Assembly: GCF_963675585.1 (NCBI RefSeq)
Contig: NZ_OY776414.1
Coordinates: forward strand, 4,195,001-4,259,000
Source of the DNA: an uncultured Draconibacterium sp.
Lineage (GTDB): Bacteria > Bacteroidota > Bacteroidia > Bacteroidales > Prolixibacteraceae
Length of the DNA: 64,000 nucleotides
Reading direction: 5' to 3'
In this document: positions 1,627 to 35,586 of the stretch, piece by piece
How positions within the stretch are numbered: position 1 is the stretch's first letter
Layout of the letters: every line of letters begins with the position of its first letter
Notes under the pieces: generated by a model
Seen by the model: only the letters and a program-made list of their open reading frames with translations
What the model was told of the DNA's origin: nothing
The model's database searches: none
Translations under genes and position numbers: made by a program

Positions 1627-1633
1627 TGCCCGC

Positions 1634-1690
1634 TACGTGGAAAGATTTGAGATTGATTGCAACCACATGAAAAAAACGCTAAAACAATCG
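1634..1690 (+). promoter_or_regulatory. SAM-II (SAM_alpha) riboswitch upstream of metK
   Basis: The leader carries the features of the SAM-II H-type pseudoknot. P1 is GTGG at 1637-1640 pairing with CCAC at 1663-1666. The loop holds the conserved GATTTGA (1644-1650) and ATTGCA (1656-1661). After a short A-rich linker comes GCTAAAA at 1678-1684. P2 is GATTG at 1651-1655 pairing with CAATC at 1685-1689, five Watson-Crick pairs. SAM-II aptamers are known from alphaproteobacteria and Bacteroidota in front of methionine and SAM genes, so feedback by the product of metK makes sense. The start codon lies 80 nt further on. There is no clear terminator between aptamer and gene, so control may act on translation or stability. 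Confidence 0.82.
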
Positions 1691-1769
1691 CATTTTTCAA
1701 TATCAATCGAACATCCCGCAGTTTTTTAATGTTTAACGAGCTGAAAATTTCAGCAAAAAAGGGATTATT

Positions 1770-27975: not shown

Positions 27976-30900
27976 TTAAAATTCTAATTCTATTCCAAAT
28001 CCATAGTACCTAAGTGTTGGGTAGTTTCTACCACTGTTCGCTCCGGTACCGCCTGCACCGCCCATGTTATTGCCAAACTCTGTCGATTCAGGATCGATAA
28101 ATGACACATTAGAGAGCGTTAGTAAGTTTTGCGCGTTTACGCTAAGTCGCAGTTTCTGAATGCCTGCTTTTGCTGTCAGTTCTTTTGGTAAAGTGTAACC
28201 CAACTGAATATTTTTTAAACGCAGGTAGGCTGCATTAAACAAATAGATGTCGGAACTTTTCTGGTAGTTGTTGGTGTTCGATGCCGAGCCTGGTGACGAT
28301 AAACGCGGCCACTCAGCATTGGGATTTACCGGAGTCCAGAAGTCGAGCTGGTGTGTATAAGTTACATACGAATAGTTGGAGTGAAAAGGCTCAACCAATT
28401 CTCCGCGTAAAAACATATCACGTTTTCCAACTCCCTGTACCAAAGCACTGAAATCAAATCCTTTCCAGGTTAAATCGTAGGTAAAACCAATGGTATAACG
28501 TGGAAAAGCATTTCCTAAAACCTGACGGTCTTTGTCATCGATTACACCGTCGTTATTTGAATCCAGGTATTTTACATCGCCGGGCTGAACGGTTGCTCCA
28601 ATTGGCAGAGCACTGTTTTCAATCTCTTCGTAACTTTGAAACAAACCATCGGTTTTGTATCCAAAATAAGAACCAAGTGCTTCTCCTTCGCGGATAATTT
28701 TTTGCATCTGGTCGCTCGAGTTGATTTGTTCGTTTCCACCAAAATCGGTCACTTCGTTTTTCGAATCAGCCAAAACCAATTTAAAATCGTGACGTACTTT
28801 TCCGGTGGTTGCATGGTATCCAATGGTTGCTTCCCATCCCTGATTTTTCATTTTACCGGCATTTTCTTTGGCAACCGCACCTCCAAATACCGTTGGAACA
28901 ACTGGTGTAAGAAGAATATTTGAAGTAATCTTATTGAAATAATCCAAGGAAACATAAAGTTTGTTGTCCAAGAAGGTTCCGTCTAAACCAACGTTAAAGT
29001 TGGCCGATTCTTCCCAGCGCAGTTCGCTGTTACCAAAATCGAATCCGGTTCCCGAAACGGCATTGTTGTTAAAACCGTACGAGTTGGTATATACCGAGTA
29101 AGTAGTGAAATAAGAATAATCATCAACATTTTGGTTACCCAAAATACCATACGATCCCCGTAGTTTTAAATCACCTACTTTTTCTTTGTAAGTGGTCATA
29201 AAGTTTTCTTCCGACAAACGCCAGCCACCGGTTACCGATGGGAAAAATCCCCAACGAAAATCTTCGGCAAATTTTGATGAACCATCGTAACGGAAACTCA
29301 CTTCACCGTAGTATTTGTCTTTAAAACTGTAGCCTGCGCGACCAAACAACGAATAAATACTGCGCTCCTGCGTTTGTGCCGGTGTATTGTAACTGGTCGG
29401 ATCAATTTCAGTTTCCGATTCGGGCAGACCTAAATCACGGTCGGTGTACCGCATCTTAATTTCGTTGGCCTTCCTGGTGTACGATTCATTCGATACGCCA
29501 ATAAAACCATTTACGTTATGGTCTTCGCTAAATGTACGTTTGTAGTCTAAAATGAACTGAGAATTCAGCACGTACTTTTTCTCGTTGTAATCTTCGGTGT
29601 TGCGTGTTTTATTGGCATACGAACTTGGAATAGTTGCTGTTTCGCTGGCATAAAAAGGCACTTCCAATCCTCTTATGTACCTGTGGTTTGCACTCAAATC
29701 CAAACCAACCAAACCTTTTACCGAAAAACCTTTTGCCAGTTCAAGCTCCATGTTTAAACTTCCCAAAAAGTTGTCGTTATCGTGTTTCTGAAAACCACCG
29801 GCTTCGAGTACTCCCAGCGGATTAAATTCCGAAAGCACATCGTTAATCAGGTAATTTCCGTTTTCGGCCTGCATTTTATAGTTGTAGTAATTCGGAATAC
29901 GTCCGCCATCCACAATTAAAGTTCCGGCACTTGAGTTCGGCGCATTTTGCAAACTTCGGTTGTACGCCATCAAGGCACTTAACTTTAGCTTTCCGTATTC
30001 GTTTACCAGGTTGGTTCTGAAGTTGTATCGTTCGGCACCGTAACCTCCCACAAAGTTACTTTCCTGGTCGTAATAACCGGCCGAAATCATGTAGGTAGAA
30101 TTCTCGCTTCCGCCCGATACACTGGCACTGTAATTTTGTTGCAATGCACTTTGCAGAATGCCGTCCAAAAACCACTCTCCATCGCCATTTTCCTGTAAAT
30201 CCCTAATTTCCGCAGGAGAATAAACCGGAGAAGAACCGCCATTGATCCAGGCCTGGTTTTTCAATATTGCATTTTCGTATCCTTTTACCGGCGAGTACAA
30301 TACATTTGGATCTTGCATACCCGCCATCATATTAAAACGTACCACCGGACGACCTGATTTTGTACCTTTTTTGGTTGTAATCAGAATAACTCCGTTTGAC
30401 GAGCGCGAACCGTAAATGGCAGCACTACCGGCATCTTTAAGTATCGATACATTTTCAATATCCGCAGGATTCAGTTCGTTTAAACTTTCCATTTCGGTAA
30501 TTAATCCGTCGATAACAAGCAAAGGATCGTTGTTATTCATGGTACTAATACCACGGATATTAATGTTCATGCTATTGTCGTTCGGATTCATGCTTCGTTG
30601 CTGAATGGTAAGGTTTGCCGAAGCTCCCTGTAAAGCCTGCGAAGCATTACTTACCGGTCGGTTTTCGATAATTCCAGAATTGATCTGATCAACAGCACCA
30701 ATCAGATTCTTTTTCTGACGGGTACCATAACCAACCACAACAACCTCTTCAACCCCAATTACATCTTCCTGCAATACAATATCGATGTTGGTTCTTCCTC
30801 CAACAACAACATCCTGAGAAATCATCCCTATAAATGAAAAACCAATTGTAGCATCTTCGGGTATGTCTTTCAGAATATAATTTCCATCAATATCGGAAAT

Positions 30901-31383
30901 TGTACCACTGGTTGATCCTTTAATAAAAATGGTTACACCCGGTAAAGGCTGTCCATTCTTATCCGTAATTTTACCACGTACCGCATTTTGTTGCTGCGCC
31001 TTAAACGTTTCGTTTGCATCGCGTTTTAATATAATGACTGCGTTATCTATAATTTTATAGCTAACCTCATCAGTATTTAAAATTTGGTCTAAAACATCTT
31101 CAATCGATGCATCATTTACCTTCAGGTTTACCTTTCGGGTAACATCGAAATCATCATTGCTAAAGAAAAAATTTAAATCGCTTTTCGATTTAATTTCATC
31201 CAGTACCTCCTGAATTGTAACATTCTTATACTTCAGGTCAAAGCGGCTTTCCTGCGAAAATGAATTCGCAGTAGCGGCAAAAATACCCAGCATAAAAAGA
31301 AAAGTTGTTAGTTTCATACGTAACAATAGTTTAGGTGAAAAATACCTTAACCTCCCTCTCGGGTTAAAATGATTTTTTTTCAT
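27976..31383 (-). CDS. SusC/RagA-family TonB-dependent transporter with STN domain (alpha-mannan locus)
   Basis: Imports oligosaccharides across the outer membrane. I take the ATG at 31383 (1135 residues); a longer frame from 31431 would translate through a hairpin region and adds no signal sequence. Order of parts: signal peptide ending NSFSQ, an STN secretin/TonB N-terminal domain (YKNVTIQEVLDEIKSKSDLN) which talks to the FecR anti-sigma factor, a CarboxypepD_reg-like beta sandwich (GKITDKNGQPLPGVTIFIKG), the plug beginning EEVVVVGYGTRQKKNL, and a 22-strand barrel ending YYGFGIELEF. The STN domain ties its expression to the adjacent sigma/FecR pair. Confidence 0.96.
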   Translation of the reverse strand: MKKNHFNPRGRLRYFSPKLLLRMKLTTFLFMLGIFAATANSFSQESRFDLKYKNVTIQEVLDEIKSKSDLNFFFSNDDFDVTRKVNLKVNDASIEDVLDQILNTDEVSYKIIDNAVIILKRDANETFKAQQQNAVRGKITDKNGQPLPGVTIFIKGSTSGTISDIDGNYILKDIPEDATIGFSFIGMISQDVVVGGRTNIDIVLQEDVIGVEEVVVVGYGTRQKKNLIGAVDQINSGIIENRPVSNASQALQGASANLTIQQRSMNPNDNSMNINIRGISTMNNNDPLLVIDGLITEMESLNELNPADIENVSILKDAGSAAIYGSRSSNGVILITTKKGTKSGRPVVRFNMMAGMQDPNVLYSPVKGYENAILKNQAWINGGSSPVYSPAEIRDLQENGDGEWFLDGILQSALQQNYSASVSGGSENSTYMISAGYYDQESNFVGGYGAERYNFRTNLVNEYGKLKLSALMAYNRSLQNAPNSSAGTLIVDGGRIPNYYNYKMQAENGNYLINDVLSEFNPLGVLEAGGFQKHDNDNFLGSLNMELELAKGFSVKGLVGLDLSANHRYIRGLEVPFYASETATIPSSYANKTRNTEDYNEKKYVLNSQFILDYKRTFSEDHNVNGFIGVSNESYTRKANEIKMRYTDRDLGLPESETEIDPTSYNTPAQTQERSIYSLFGRAGYSFKDKYYGEVSFRYDGSSKFAEDFRWGFFPSVTGGWRLSEENFMTTYKEKVGDLKLRGSYGILGNQNVDDYSYFTTYSVYTNSYGFNNNAVSGTGFDFGNSELRWEESANFNVGLDGTFLDNKLYVSLDYFNKITSNILLTPVVPTVFGGAVAKENAGKMKNQGWEATIGYHATTGKVRHDFKLVLADSKNEVTDFGGNEQINSSDQMQKIIREGEALGSYFGYKTDGLFQSYEEIENSALPIGATVQPGDVKYLDSNNDGVIDDKDRQVLGNAFPRYTIGFTYDLTWKGFDFSALVQGVGKRDMFLRGELVEPFHSNYSYVTYTHQLDFWTPVNPNAEWPRLSSPGSASNTNNYQKSSDIYLFNAAYLRLKNIQLGYTLPKELTAKAGIQKLRLSVNAQNLLTLSNVSFIDPESTEFGNNMGGAGGTGANSGRNYPTLRYYGFGIELEF

Positions 31384-31390
31384 AAATTTG
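31383..31390 (+). promoter_or_regulatory. Plus-strand -7 box for a predicted antisense RNA
   Basis: TAAATTTG fits TAnnTTTG exactly, on the strand opposite to susC and overlapping the susC start codon. No clear -33 TTTG lies 19 bases upstream (the sequence there is GGGTTAAA). It gains weight only together with the terminator 60 bases downstream. Confidence 0.45.
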
Positions 31391-31396
31391 TATTGA

Positions 31397-31485
31397 GTTT
31401 TATACTTTCTAATACTCGTTGTGAAGGACAAGTATTAGGTTTAATTAATGACCGGAATTTGTTGCAAGCATATTCCGGTTTTTTT
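31397..31485 (+). ncRNA. Predicted antisense sRNA over the susC leader
   Basis: Between fecR and susC, on the strand without genes, lie in order: a -7 box (31383-31390), a hairpin with an eight-pair stem CTAATACT (31409-31416) and AGTATTAG (31431-31438), and a terminator hairpin ending in seven T. A transcript of about 90 nt from about 31397 would be fully antisense to the susC 5' leader. In Bacteroides fragilis, DonS and related cis-antisense sRNAs lie in this arrangement in PULs controlled by sigma/anti-sigma pairs and repress the transporter genes. The RNA here is predicted from sequence only; its 5' end is uncertain by several bases. Confidence 0.6.
31451..31485 (+). terminator. Plus-strand terminator between susC and fecR
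   Basis: ACCGGAAT (31451-31458) pairs with ATTCCGGT (31472-31479), followed directly by seven T (31479-31485) on the plus strand. On the minus strand the hairpin is followed by CATTAATT, so it does not look like a terminator for fecR. No plus-strand protein gene ends here. Confidence 0.8.
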
Positions 31486-32446
31486 ATTTTTTATCCACTA
31501 TTTTTATTTGTTCGTTATTAAATTCAAAATCTACTTTATTTATCGCTTCTATGATTTTCAAGGTATAATCAAGCGTTTTATCGGTGTTGATAACACCTGT
31601 AAACCTGTACTTTTTAATGTGTTCCCCGGTAAATTGAAATTTAACTTCGTACCATCTTTCGAGCTGCAAAGTAAGTTCCAGTAAACTTTCGTTGTTGAAA
31701 TAGATTTTTCCCCCTTTCCAGGCGGTGTAATCGGCAGTGTTTACCTCTTTTTTAACTATCCGGTTGCTGTTTTCGGTATACAAAATATGCTCTCCCGGAT
31801 CAACAAGAATTGATTTGCCTCCTGCCGAAAACTCAATCTTTCCTTCAACAAGCACTGTTTCAACCTTGGGTTCGTTCTGATACGCCTTTACATTAAATAC
31901 TGTTCCCAGCACTTTTATTTGCGATTTCCCGGCATTTACCACAAAAGGGCGTTCTTTATCTTTAGTTACGTCGAAGTAGGCTTCACCTTCGAGAAACACT
32001 TCGCGGGTAGCGGTATTAAAATTTTGAGTGTACTTTAGCGTCGATCCGGCATTTAACCAAATATTTGTTCCATCGAACAAGGTTACGTTCGAAATTTGCC
32101 CGTTGGGTGCAGTAATACTGGCAAACACGGGTACCGGCTCATTAAACGTTGTATACGTCCAAAAGGCCGAACCACCAACCAGTAACGAAACAACCACAAT
32201 GGCAGCATATTTTAAAAATTCCTGCCAAAACCTTTGCGGAACAAGTTGTTTTTTTAGCTCTGCCCAGGCCTTGTCTTCAGCTTTTAAACGCCTGGCCTTG
32301 CTTACATTTCCCCTCAGCTCAAAAATGCTTTCAACCGCTTTTTTATCGCTCGCTTCATCCGAGCTCAGGTTTGTGTCAGCAGCATCACTTTCTCCATGGA
32401 GGTTCGATGCCCATTCCTCCCATTTATTTTGGATGTTTTCTTTCAT
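31484..32446 (-). CDS. FecR-family anti-sigma factor
   Basis: Membrane-anchored regulator of 320 residues that holds the ECF sigma factor until the SusC STN domain signals that substrate is present. A cytoplasmic N-terminal part (1-80) with a sigma-binding helix region precedes one membrane span (about 82-102, YAAIVVVSLLVGGSAFWTY). The periplasmic FecR domain follows (TLFDGTNIWLNAGSTLKY, then REVFLEGEAYFDVTKDKERP), and a C-terminal DUF4974-like domain (YFNNESLLELTLQLERWYEV). Lies directly downstream of the sigma gene and 100 bases upstream of susC. Confidence 0.94.
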   Translation of the reverse strand: MKENIQNKWEEWASNLHGESDAADTNLSSDEASDKKAVESIFELRGNVSKARRLKAEDKAWAELKKQLVPQRFWQEFLKYAAIVVVSLLVGGSAFWTYTTFNEPVPVFASITAPNGQISNVTLFDGTNIWLNAGSTLKYTQNFNTATREVFLEGEAYFDVTKDKERPFVVNAGKSQIKVLGTVFNVKAYQNEPKVETVLVEGKIEFSAGGKSILVDPGEHILYTENSNRIVKKEVNTADYTAWKGGKIYFNNESLLELTLQLERWYEVKFQFTGEHIKKYRFTGVINTDKTLDYTLKIIEAINKVDFEFNNEQIKIVDKK

Positions 32447-32551
32447 TCTATTGTTTAGTCACAAAACCCTCAAAAGAGGGTGAAGTTATTTTCAACTTTT
32501 TTCAAAAAAAAACTGAATACGTAATAAAATTTGATGTAATCAACTGTGAGA

Positions 32552-33118
32552 TTAGCGCAAAATTCGTTTTAAAGGATATACAAACAGAAGCAAAAAATAC
32601 GACTTTAAGTGTTCTCTTAATTGTTTGTATGCGATACCCATTTGGGTTTTTATTGTGTTTTTTGAAAGCCCCAGCGATTCGGCTATCTGGTTGTAAGTGA
32701 GGTTATCAACGTAGGCCATTAAAAATATTCGTTTACACTGAGACGGCAATTTATCGATCGATTTTGAGACTAAAACGGCCAACTCTTCCTTCGAGAAATT
32801 TTCATCGGAATCGGAACTCAGAGTCATATCCAGTTCCTCATTAATAACTTCATGAAATTTTCTTTCACGATTTACAAAATTGATGCTCTTGTTTTTAACT
32901 GCCTGTAAAAAATATTGCTTTAAACTTTGCCTGATCTCAAGTTGATTTCGTTTTTCCCACAAATACAGAAAAGTTTCCTGTACAACGTCCTCAGCTTCCT
33001 GCTGGTTTTTTATGTAACGCAAGGCAACCAAACAAGCTGTGTGATAGTTTTCTTTGAAAAACATTTCAAAGGAGGATAAACTATTCAACTTTAAACTTGT
33101 CTGCTTTTGCTCTTTCAT
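32552..33118 (-). CDS. ECF sigma factor (FecI-like) of the alpha-mannan locus
   Basis: A 188-residue RNA polymerase sigma-70 factor. I use the ATG at 33118. A longer frame to 33229 would place coding sequence inside the terminator of the preceding GH92 gene and adds no conserved residues. Region 2 is FFKENYHTACLVALRYI, then QEAEDVVQETFLYLWEKRNQ. Region 4 is IDKLPSQCKRIFLMAYVDN with TYNQIAESLGLSKNTIKTQM. It would direct transcription of the susC operon once FecR releases it. Confidence 0.94.
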   Translation of the reverse strand: MKEQKQTSLKLNSLSSFEMFFKENYHTACLVALRYIKNQQEAEDVVQETFLYLWEKRNQLEIRQSLKQYFLQAVKNKSINFVNRERKFHEVINEELDMTLSSDSDENFSKEELAVLVSKSIDKLPSQCKRIFLMAYVDNLTYNQIAESLGLSKNTIKTQMGIAYKQLREHLKSYFLLLFVYPLKRILR

Positions 33119-33181
33119 TAGATCGTGCTCAAAGCCAACAATGTTATTAAAATTAAACGATTTAAAAAACACTGCCCCATC

Positions 33182-33226
33182 AAAATTAAAAAAGTCTGCC
33201 ATCAGTTTTTTGCCGATGGCAGACTT
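33182..33226 (-). terminator. Terminator of the upstream GH92 gene
   Basis: Perfect 12-pair stem AAGTCTGCCATC (33192-33203) with GATGGCAGACTT (33215-33226). On the minus strand it is followed by a T-rich stretch (33182-33193). It separates GH92 from the sigma factor gene. Confidence 0.9.
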
Positions 33227-33237
33227 CAAAAGAGGCT

Positions 33238-35547: not shown

Positions 35548-35586
35548 AAAAAAATATCGGGGGAGCGCTTTAAACACTCCCCCGAT
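35548..35586 (-). terminator. Terminator between the two tandem GH92 genes
   Basis: Perfect ten-pair stem ATCGGGGGAG (35556-35565) with CTCCCCCGAT (35577-35586). On the minus strand it runs into seven T (35548-35554). Confidence 0.9.

Follow-up and report, generated by a model that had tools for sequence, protein, structure and literature searches.

Repressing RNAs of the DonS type are known from Bacteroides fragilis, where they belong to PULs with a sigma/anti-sigma pair, and the founding work on DonS in Bacteroides is reportedly that of Cao et al. in 2016. In the accessible part of one source, PUL antisense RNAs of the DonS type lie opposite susC in Bacteroides and are 78-128 nt long (PMC7366714). 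In B. thetaiotaomicron, 32 PUL cis-antisense RNAs showed mixed correlations, and some of them correlated positively with their own PUL, according to the accessible text (PMC10994844); therefore, repression is not to be assumed for each antisense RNA. FopS RNAs, of which 4 among 14 were classed as antisense RNAs, act close to the start codon and repress the translation of SusC; SusC-type repression at the start region by FopS/GibS in B. thetaiotaomicron includes a high-mannose N-glycan PUL (both from the accessible part of PMC11697453). In plasmid antisense systems, a YUNR motif occupies the recognition loop of the sense or antisense RNA and pairing begins loop to loop, although the kissing step is dispensable for one plasmid antisense RNA, as described in the accessible part of PMC4485353.

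We analyzed a window, that is, the whole stretch of 64,000 nt of DNA from an uncultured Draconibacterium sp., the host being a member of the Prolixibacteraceae in contrast to the Bacteroides hosts of the DonS RNAs. Pfam searches assigned ECF sigma, FecR, SusC, SusD, SusE, GH76 and GH92 genes, all on the minus strand, and the locus is an alpha-mannan PUL. The ECF sigma and FecR genes lie directly 5' of susC, and a short antisense RNA is predicted from the sequence opposite the 5' region of this susC homologue, as in DonS-type systems. The features of the site are as follows.

32552..33229, minus strand: gene of the ECF sigma factor (Pfam Sigma70_r2, r4, r4_2).
31484..32446, minus strand: fecR, gene of the anti-sigma factor (Pfam FecR, FecR_C).
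27976..31383, minus strand: susC, the presumed target, encoding an STN-containing TonB-dependent transporter (Pfam).
31373..31380, plus strand: T-tract directly 5' of the -7 box, opposite susC codons 2-4 (sequence).
31383..31390, plus strand: putative -7 promoter box TAAATTTG (TAnnTTTG), overlapping the susC start codon (sequence, family logo, enrichment against controls).
31395, plus strand: predicted transcription start, a G, 5 nt past the box (family offset and F. psychrophilum spacing).
31395..31487, plus strand: predicted antisense RNA of ~93 nt (span from box to terminator, and fold).
31409-31416 and 31431-31438, plus strand: hairpin 1, with 8-bp perfect arms CTAATACT and AGTATTAG (sequence, fold, compensatory changes in orthologues).
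31451..31487, plus strand: predicted intrinsic terminator with the apex UG(UUGCAAG)CA and a U-tract (RNAfold, covariance model).

The original prediction had placed a TAnnTTTG box at 31383-31390 over the susC start codon, a hairpin at 31409-31438 and a terminator at 31451-31485, together giving an RNA of about 90 nt in a stretch where the plus strand has no protein gene. The sequence agrees with the box, of which base 1 in TAAATTTG faces the A of the susC ATG (31383-31381, minus strand), and the inverted repeat is present as claimed. The terminator consists of a G+C-rich hairpin, ACCGGAAT and ATTCCGGT at 31451-31458 and 31472-31479, followed by TTTTTTATTTTTT, and the fecR stop codon sits inside the U-tract of the predicted RNA. 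For the predicted 93-nt RNA, 31395-31487, the computed structure has two main hairpins and a free energy of -25.7 kcal/mol (shuffled mean -13.8, z -4.2), and none of 200 dinucleotide shuffles equaled this value. Two plus-strand ORFs of at least 20 aa touch 31380-31490 and neither lies inside the predicted RNA; the one of 50 aa begins at 31369, ahead of it, and the one of 78 aa begins at 31448 and extends beyond the terminator to 31684. The proposed kinship with the DonS type is supported by where and on which strand the RNA is encoded, by the -7 box and by the sigma/anti-sigma pair, and the predicted length would agree as well, as far as the accessible descriptions in papers citing the founding work go. 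The likely reading is that 31395-31487 (+) encodes, in cis, a DonS-type antisense RNA that would lower susC expression.

The window's terminator was missed by a generic terminator scan because the top of its hairpin is irregular. The strict terminator detector used for the gap counts below also failed on it, so that it is scored there as a miss, although both RNAfold and a covariance model recovered it. At 32466-32481 (+), antisense in the gap between the sigma gene and fecR, the generic scan did list a hairpin that resembles a terminator and has a weak T tail, which could be a stop for antisense transcription ahead of the sigma gene. A sigma-70 scan gave two 9-of-12 matches at the site, extending from 31377 or 31379 to 31406. 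This promoter type is not one that this phylum uses, and the number of matches is near that expected by chance (12 found against 7.4); these matches were therefore given no weight. Rfam showed nothing at or above the gathering score at 31383-31485 in a copy that may not include FopS, and at E values up to 10 it returned only an Ssr1 fragment on the opposite strand (15.5 bits against a cut-off of 820).

Beyond what the original prediction had noticed, most sister loci of the genome carry the feature as well. The 6.03-Mb genome contains 28 FecR matches, and the 28 regions 3' of fecR repeat many times one plan on the sense strand: an A-run, a hairpin, and CAAAnnTATG at the start codon, which reads as TAnnTTTG, a hairpin and a U-run on the antisense strand. 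Of the 27 fecR-linked susC genes of this genome, 16 have the box placed exactly on their start codon, whereas this holds for only 3 of 250 control genes drawn from twenty 20-kb stretches (Fisher, 3e-16). None of 16 fecR-less susC genes has it (6e-5 against the fecR-linked genes), a count that rests on the best 30 of 56 susC matches, among which 9 of 14 fecR-type genes have the box; a weak antisense hairpin was seen in 2 of the 16 fecR-less genes. Since the same arrangement is found at so many sister loci, a recurring off-switch of carbohydrate uptake is likelier than chance.

For comparison beyond this genome, fecR-susC gaps were collected from the family, from other families of the order and from named records. 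After removal of loci whose downstream genes were not SusC-like (11 from the order, 1 from the own genome), of copies sharing identical ends and of 10 SusC-type gaps shorter than 50 nt (144 to 134), there were 134 gaps, of which 106 are non-redundant. The family loci are the best matches to the FecR of the window and are not independent of one another. Start codons were taken from the longest ORF and refined at two loci. One fragment without a fecR end (L113) stands outside all analyses, and L110 and L111 contain L030 and L032, the latter two lying within the Gaoshiqia and M. marinum records.

A logo of 84 non-redundant gaps (own genome and family) reads CAAA-nn-TA(TG), with C at 0.83, AAA at 0.88-0.94, two loose positions, T at 0.95 and then ATG; both loose positions coincide with the nn of TAnnTTTG. 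Across the 106 non-redundant gaps, 73 boxes coincide with the start codon, 13 lie elsewhere in 14252 gap bases, and 7 more fall within the first 60 nt of susC. The sense strand has a conserved A-run opposite the T-tract: the frequency of A at +4 to +11 is 0.63-0.93, compared with 0.34-0.65 for the control genes. A mere translation-initiation context was ruled out as the origin of the box: control starts have T at 0.32 at -1 and show no CAAA block. The MKK start of many fecR-type SusC proteins coincides with the T-tract of the putative antisense promoter, and selection at the DNA level may therefore shape the start of the SusC protein. The family signature also suggests promoter selection on the start context and first codons of fecR-type susC genes, which matters for annotation and heterologous expression.

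The box at the window locus has the canonical sigma-ABfr -7 form, TAnnTTTG. A sigma-A box of F. psychrophilum is located at -12 to -5, according to the accessible part of PMC9723704, and the base at the corresponding predicted start offset is G (0.42) or T (0.38) in 64 family promoters. The main doubt of the original prediction was a weak -33 element. TTTG near -33, as in canonical sigma-ABfr promoters, was found in none of the 64 family promoters, and TTG was rarer there (3/64) than at other boxes (about 17%), so that the weakness is shared family-wide; judged from these sequences, the absent -33 element is a trait of the whole family. The -33 search is equally uninformative for ordinary promoters, since TTG was no commoner at 64 boxes upstream of genes than at 276 boxes inside ORFs. 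A -33 TTTG was not identified in F. johnsoniae either, in the accessible part of PMC7366714.

Loss of the stem pairing in close relatives would have spoken against the RNA, and the orthologues examined did not show such a loss. Orthologous FecR proteins of Gaoshiqia sediminis, Sunxiuqinia and Mangrovibacterium (the last also of the Prolixibacteraceae) are 54-55% identical over nearly the full length, and that of one Sunxiuqinia MAG fragment is 71% identical over its end. Alignment of their gaps, which had been proposed as a check, revealed that the box, hairpin 1 and the terminator are retained in the same places with altered sequence. Over 8 aligned orthologues, the 9 scored pairs of hairpin 1 keep their pairing in 98.6% of cases, and 4 of these pairs are changed on both sides, indicating compensatory changes; two flanking or inner pairs, each paired in 4 of the 8, were left out of the scoring. 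When the partner was slid by one to three columns, the pairing fell to 29-49%. Two weak shuffle measures gave values as high in 31 (both-side changes) and 116 (further pair types) of 500 shuffles. Covariation was scored for hairpin 1 and not for the terminator because the register of the terminator shifts between lineages.

The apical loops of the terminators have a common form. The innermost G-C pair leaving a loop of at least 5 nt is oriented 5'G-C3' in 73 of 76 antisense terminators against 25 of 47 controls (p 1e-8). When the loop is 5-8 nt long, the form G(UU...G)C accounts for 26 of 55 cases, and for 1 of 26 in the controls (p 9e-5); its complementary form G(C...AA)C accounts for 8 of 55 and 1 of 26, respectively. 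An apex common to all terminators was rejected by comparison with the 47 control terminators, a modest set. A YUNR U-turn was present in the loop or its complement in 32 of 54 cases (letter-shuffled mean 16.3, none of 2000 as high), and when it had to lie near the 5' end of the loop, 32 of 55 cases had it, compared with 6 of the 26 controls (p 0.003). On the antisense strand alone, YUNR was not significantly enriched over control terminators (20/55 against 5/26, p 0.09); counted anywhere in the antisense-strand loop, it was significantly more frequent than in shuffled loops (22 against 11.8). At the family level the loops of one strand or the other thus carry the motif of the ColE1 RNAI-type way of working, a statement about function and not about ancestry. 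By eye, the window's loop UUGCAAG is without YUNR and its complement CUUGCAA has CUUG. The sequence G(UUGGUAG)C occurs twice in ColE1 RNAI, and an identical apex was found in 3 of the 76 antisense terminators. The likeness to ColE1 RNAI and to U-turn plasmid antisense RNAs, in apex and in YUNR loops, is read as convergence of form, and no homology is claimed; unlike ColE1 RNAI, the predicted RNAs are directed at another kind of target, a single mRNA leader in cis at each locus. UUnnnG loops were also seen by eye in 5 of 30 listed upstream hairpins (L137, L140, L160, L165 and L056), and their presence there and not only in terminators hints at a loop function over termination. No description of the signature G(UUnnnG)C in PUL antisense RNAs was found in the accessible literature.

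The promoter box, the structured strand, the terminator and their conservation are supported by comparison of sequences, and we infer transcription, repression and a loop-first pairing. The -7 box inside the susC start codon would fire and start the ~93-nt RNA, which would run back through the susC leader and end over the fecR stop codon, where the intrinsic terminator lies. The predicted RNA would have two hairpins and full complementarity to the fecR-susC leader, from about -12 to the fecR stop. Most likely, the apical loops and the single-stranded 5' end would contact the complementary leader first, and a duplex would then form from about -12 upstream, adjoining the susC start region. To our knowledge, messages in this phylum lack a Shine-Dalgarno sequence. 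The output of susC would drop while the glycan has not engaged the sigma/anti-sigma switch, and with the ECF factor released by glycan, sense transcripts would come to exceed the antisense RNA in number.

The main rival, which we consider unlikely, is transcriptional interference, in which antisense polymerase would collide with or block sense polymerase and the terminator would shield fecR from read-through. It is consistent with boxes over start codons and terminators on the fecR side being found again and again, but interference would not need hairpin 1 to be kept through compensatory changes, nor a common form of the apical loop. Still less probable is a FopS-like action in trans on several susC messages, with the cis position being secondary. 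In its favor stand the FopS RNAs, described above as acting close to the start codon and as antisense in part (PMC11697453), and the identity of some loops of the own genome (L008 and L016). In contrast to FopS/GibS, where a shared seed addresses several messages, the hairpin sequences here differ between loci, that is, in most paralogues, and complementarity to the own leader follows from position; moreover, the site has no Rfam family match, with the reservation on FopS in that copy given above.

The strand on which the hairpins act was addressed with the direction of the terminators. Strict antisense terminators were found in 101 of 134 gaps (own genome 17/25, family 71/84, other families of the order 7/14, named records 6/11), whereas strict sense terminators were found in 4 (1, 1, 2 and 0, respectively); dinucleotide shuffles gave a mean of 1.5 antisense terminators per 134. 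A relaxed RNAfold-based detector gave the same direction with fewer terminators, 62 of 134 antisense (12/25, 41/84, 5/14 and 4/11) and 4 sense (1, 3, 0 and 0), with shuffled means of 5.0 and 0.2. The smaller number is attributed to its coarse window steps, and at the window's locus it chose hairpin 1 and not the terminator; the strict detector was relied on. Where the box and a strict terminator are both present (n=57), the predicted lengths have a median of 83 nt and range from 53 to 128 nt, compared with 93 nt at the window locus and with the 78-128 nt of the DonS RNAs (PMC7366714, accessible part).

A G.U wobble on one strand is an A.C mismatch on the other, and both were allowed alike in a second comparison of the strands. 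The stems of antisense terminators (79 of 106 gaps) contained 92 G.U and 6 A.C (G.U share expected from composition 0.665, p 8e-11), and the upstream hairpins (30 of 106 gaps) contained 18 G.U and 1 A.C (expected share 0.665, p 0.0045), these p-values being optimistic because the loci are related by descent. The bias toward G.U on the antisense strand indicates that the hairpins evolve as antisense RNA structures. That they serve instead the sense mRNA leader, in processing, stability or fecR termination, with the antisense features as by-products, is very unlikely: a somewhat longer segment folds well in the sense direction too (z -5.65), but the U-tract is antisense in most gaps, the wobble bias favors the antisense strand, and the start-codon box is of no evident use to a sense RNA.

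A covariance model was built from 29 hand-picked terminators out of 36 listed of 53 eligible, with the orthologue group of the window excluded; the 7 omitted had mostly longer or less regular upper stems. Because of this hand selection, pair counts within the training set are inflated and carry no evidential weight here. This held-out model ranked the window's terminator first of 10 hits in the 64 kb (27 bits, E 7.5e-5). Genome-wide, the model gave 22 hits at E<=1; 18 of them fall on the antisense strand of fecR-susC gaps (15 belong to the training set, and 3, the window's locus included, were held out) and 4 lie elsewhere, and its best hit in the twenty control stretches (400 kb) reached 22.8 bits. 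A chance or neutral pattern of AT-rich DNA has a negligible probability: the gap is AT-rich and TAnnTTTG is loose as a motif, which would favor it, but the box, terminator, logo, wobble, orthologue and covariance-model statistics all disfavor it. The runner-up of the model in the window (23.7 bits, 35549-35585, minus strand) is a terminator-like hairpin in the sense direction with a similar apex, between two GH92 genes.

Regarding the spread of the cis-antisense arrangement beyond the family, two Parabacteroides genomes showed the box at 8, an antisense terminator at 5 and a sense terminator at none of 12 loci, which are the best 12 of 91 FecR matches. In other families of the order the box was present in 6 of 19 SusC-type gaps, and in a phylum-wide sample of 25 the box, antisense terminator and sense terminator were found in 6, 9 and 4, respectively. 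One Ferruginibacter (Chitinophagaceae) has an antisense terminator with the same apex and no perfect box, and one genome (G131) has neither box nor antisense terminator in 5 loci. Thus, beyond the family the layout is by no means general.

The RNA kind is already known from Bacteroides, and the description for this family may be new; among the matches listed, no title or beginning of an abstract described such RNAs in Prolixibacteraceae, a promoter at the start codon, or the loops. Set beside DonS, the present locus would add the box over the start codon family-wide and the form of the apical loop, and would extend the class to a mannan-degrading PUL of the Prolixibacteraceae with a concrete proposal for recognition. 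We tentatively propose, as a possibility short of a likely one, that the sigma/anti-sigma PULs in a large part of Bacteroidota share a common design, with a start-codon promoter and with kissing loops similar to those of RNAI, either G(UUnnnG)C or the complementary form, in which a fixed frame holds a variable centre addressing the own leader. If so, many glycan uptake systems per cell would be silenced by parallel, insulated plasmid-style antisense switches. The start-codon box, antisense terminator and loop apex together make a sequence rule searchable in any Bacteroidota genome.

Two other structured elements were noted outside the fecR-susC gaps. L287 and L290 (own genome, C4:3489861-3489905) are hits of the covariance model on both strands of a near-symmetric hairpin, and a SAM-II riboswitch scored over the Rfam gathering score at 1631-1692 (+) of the window.
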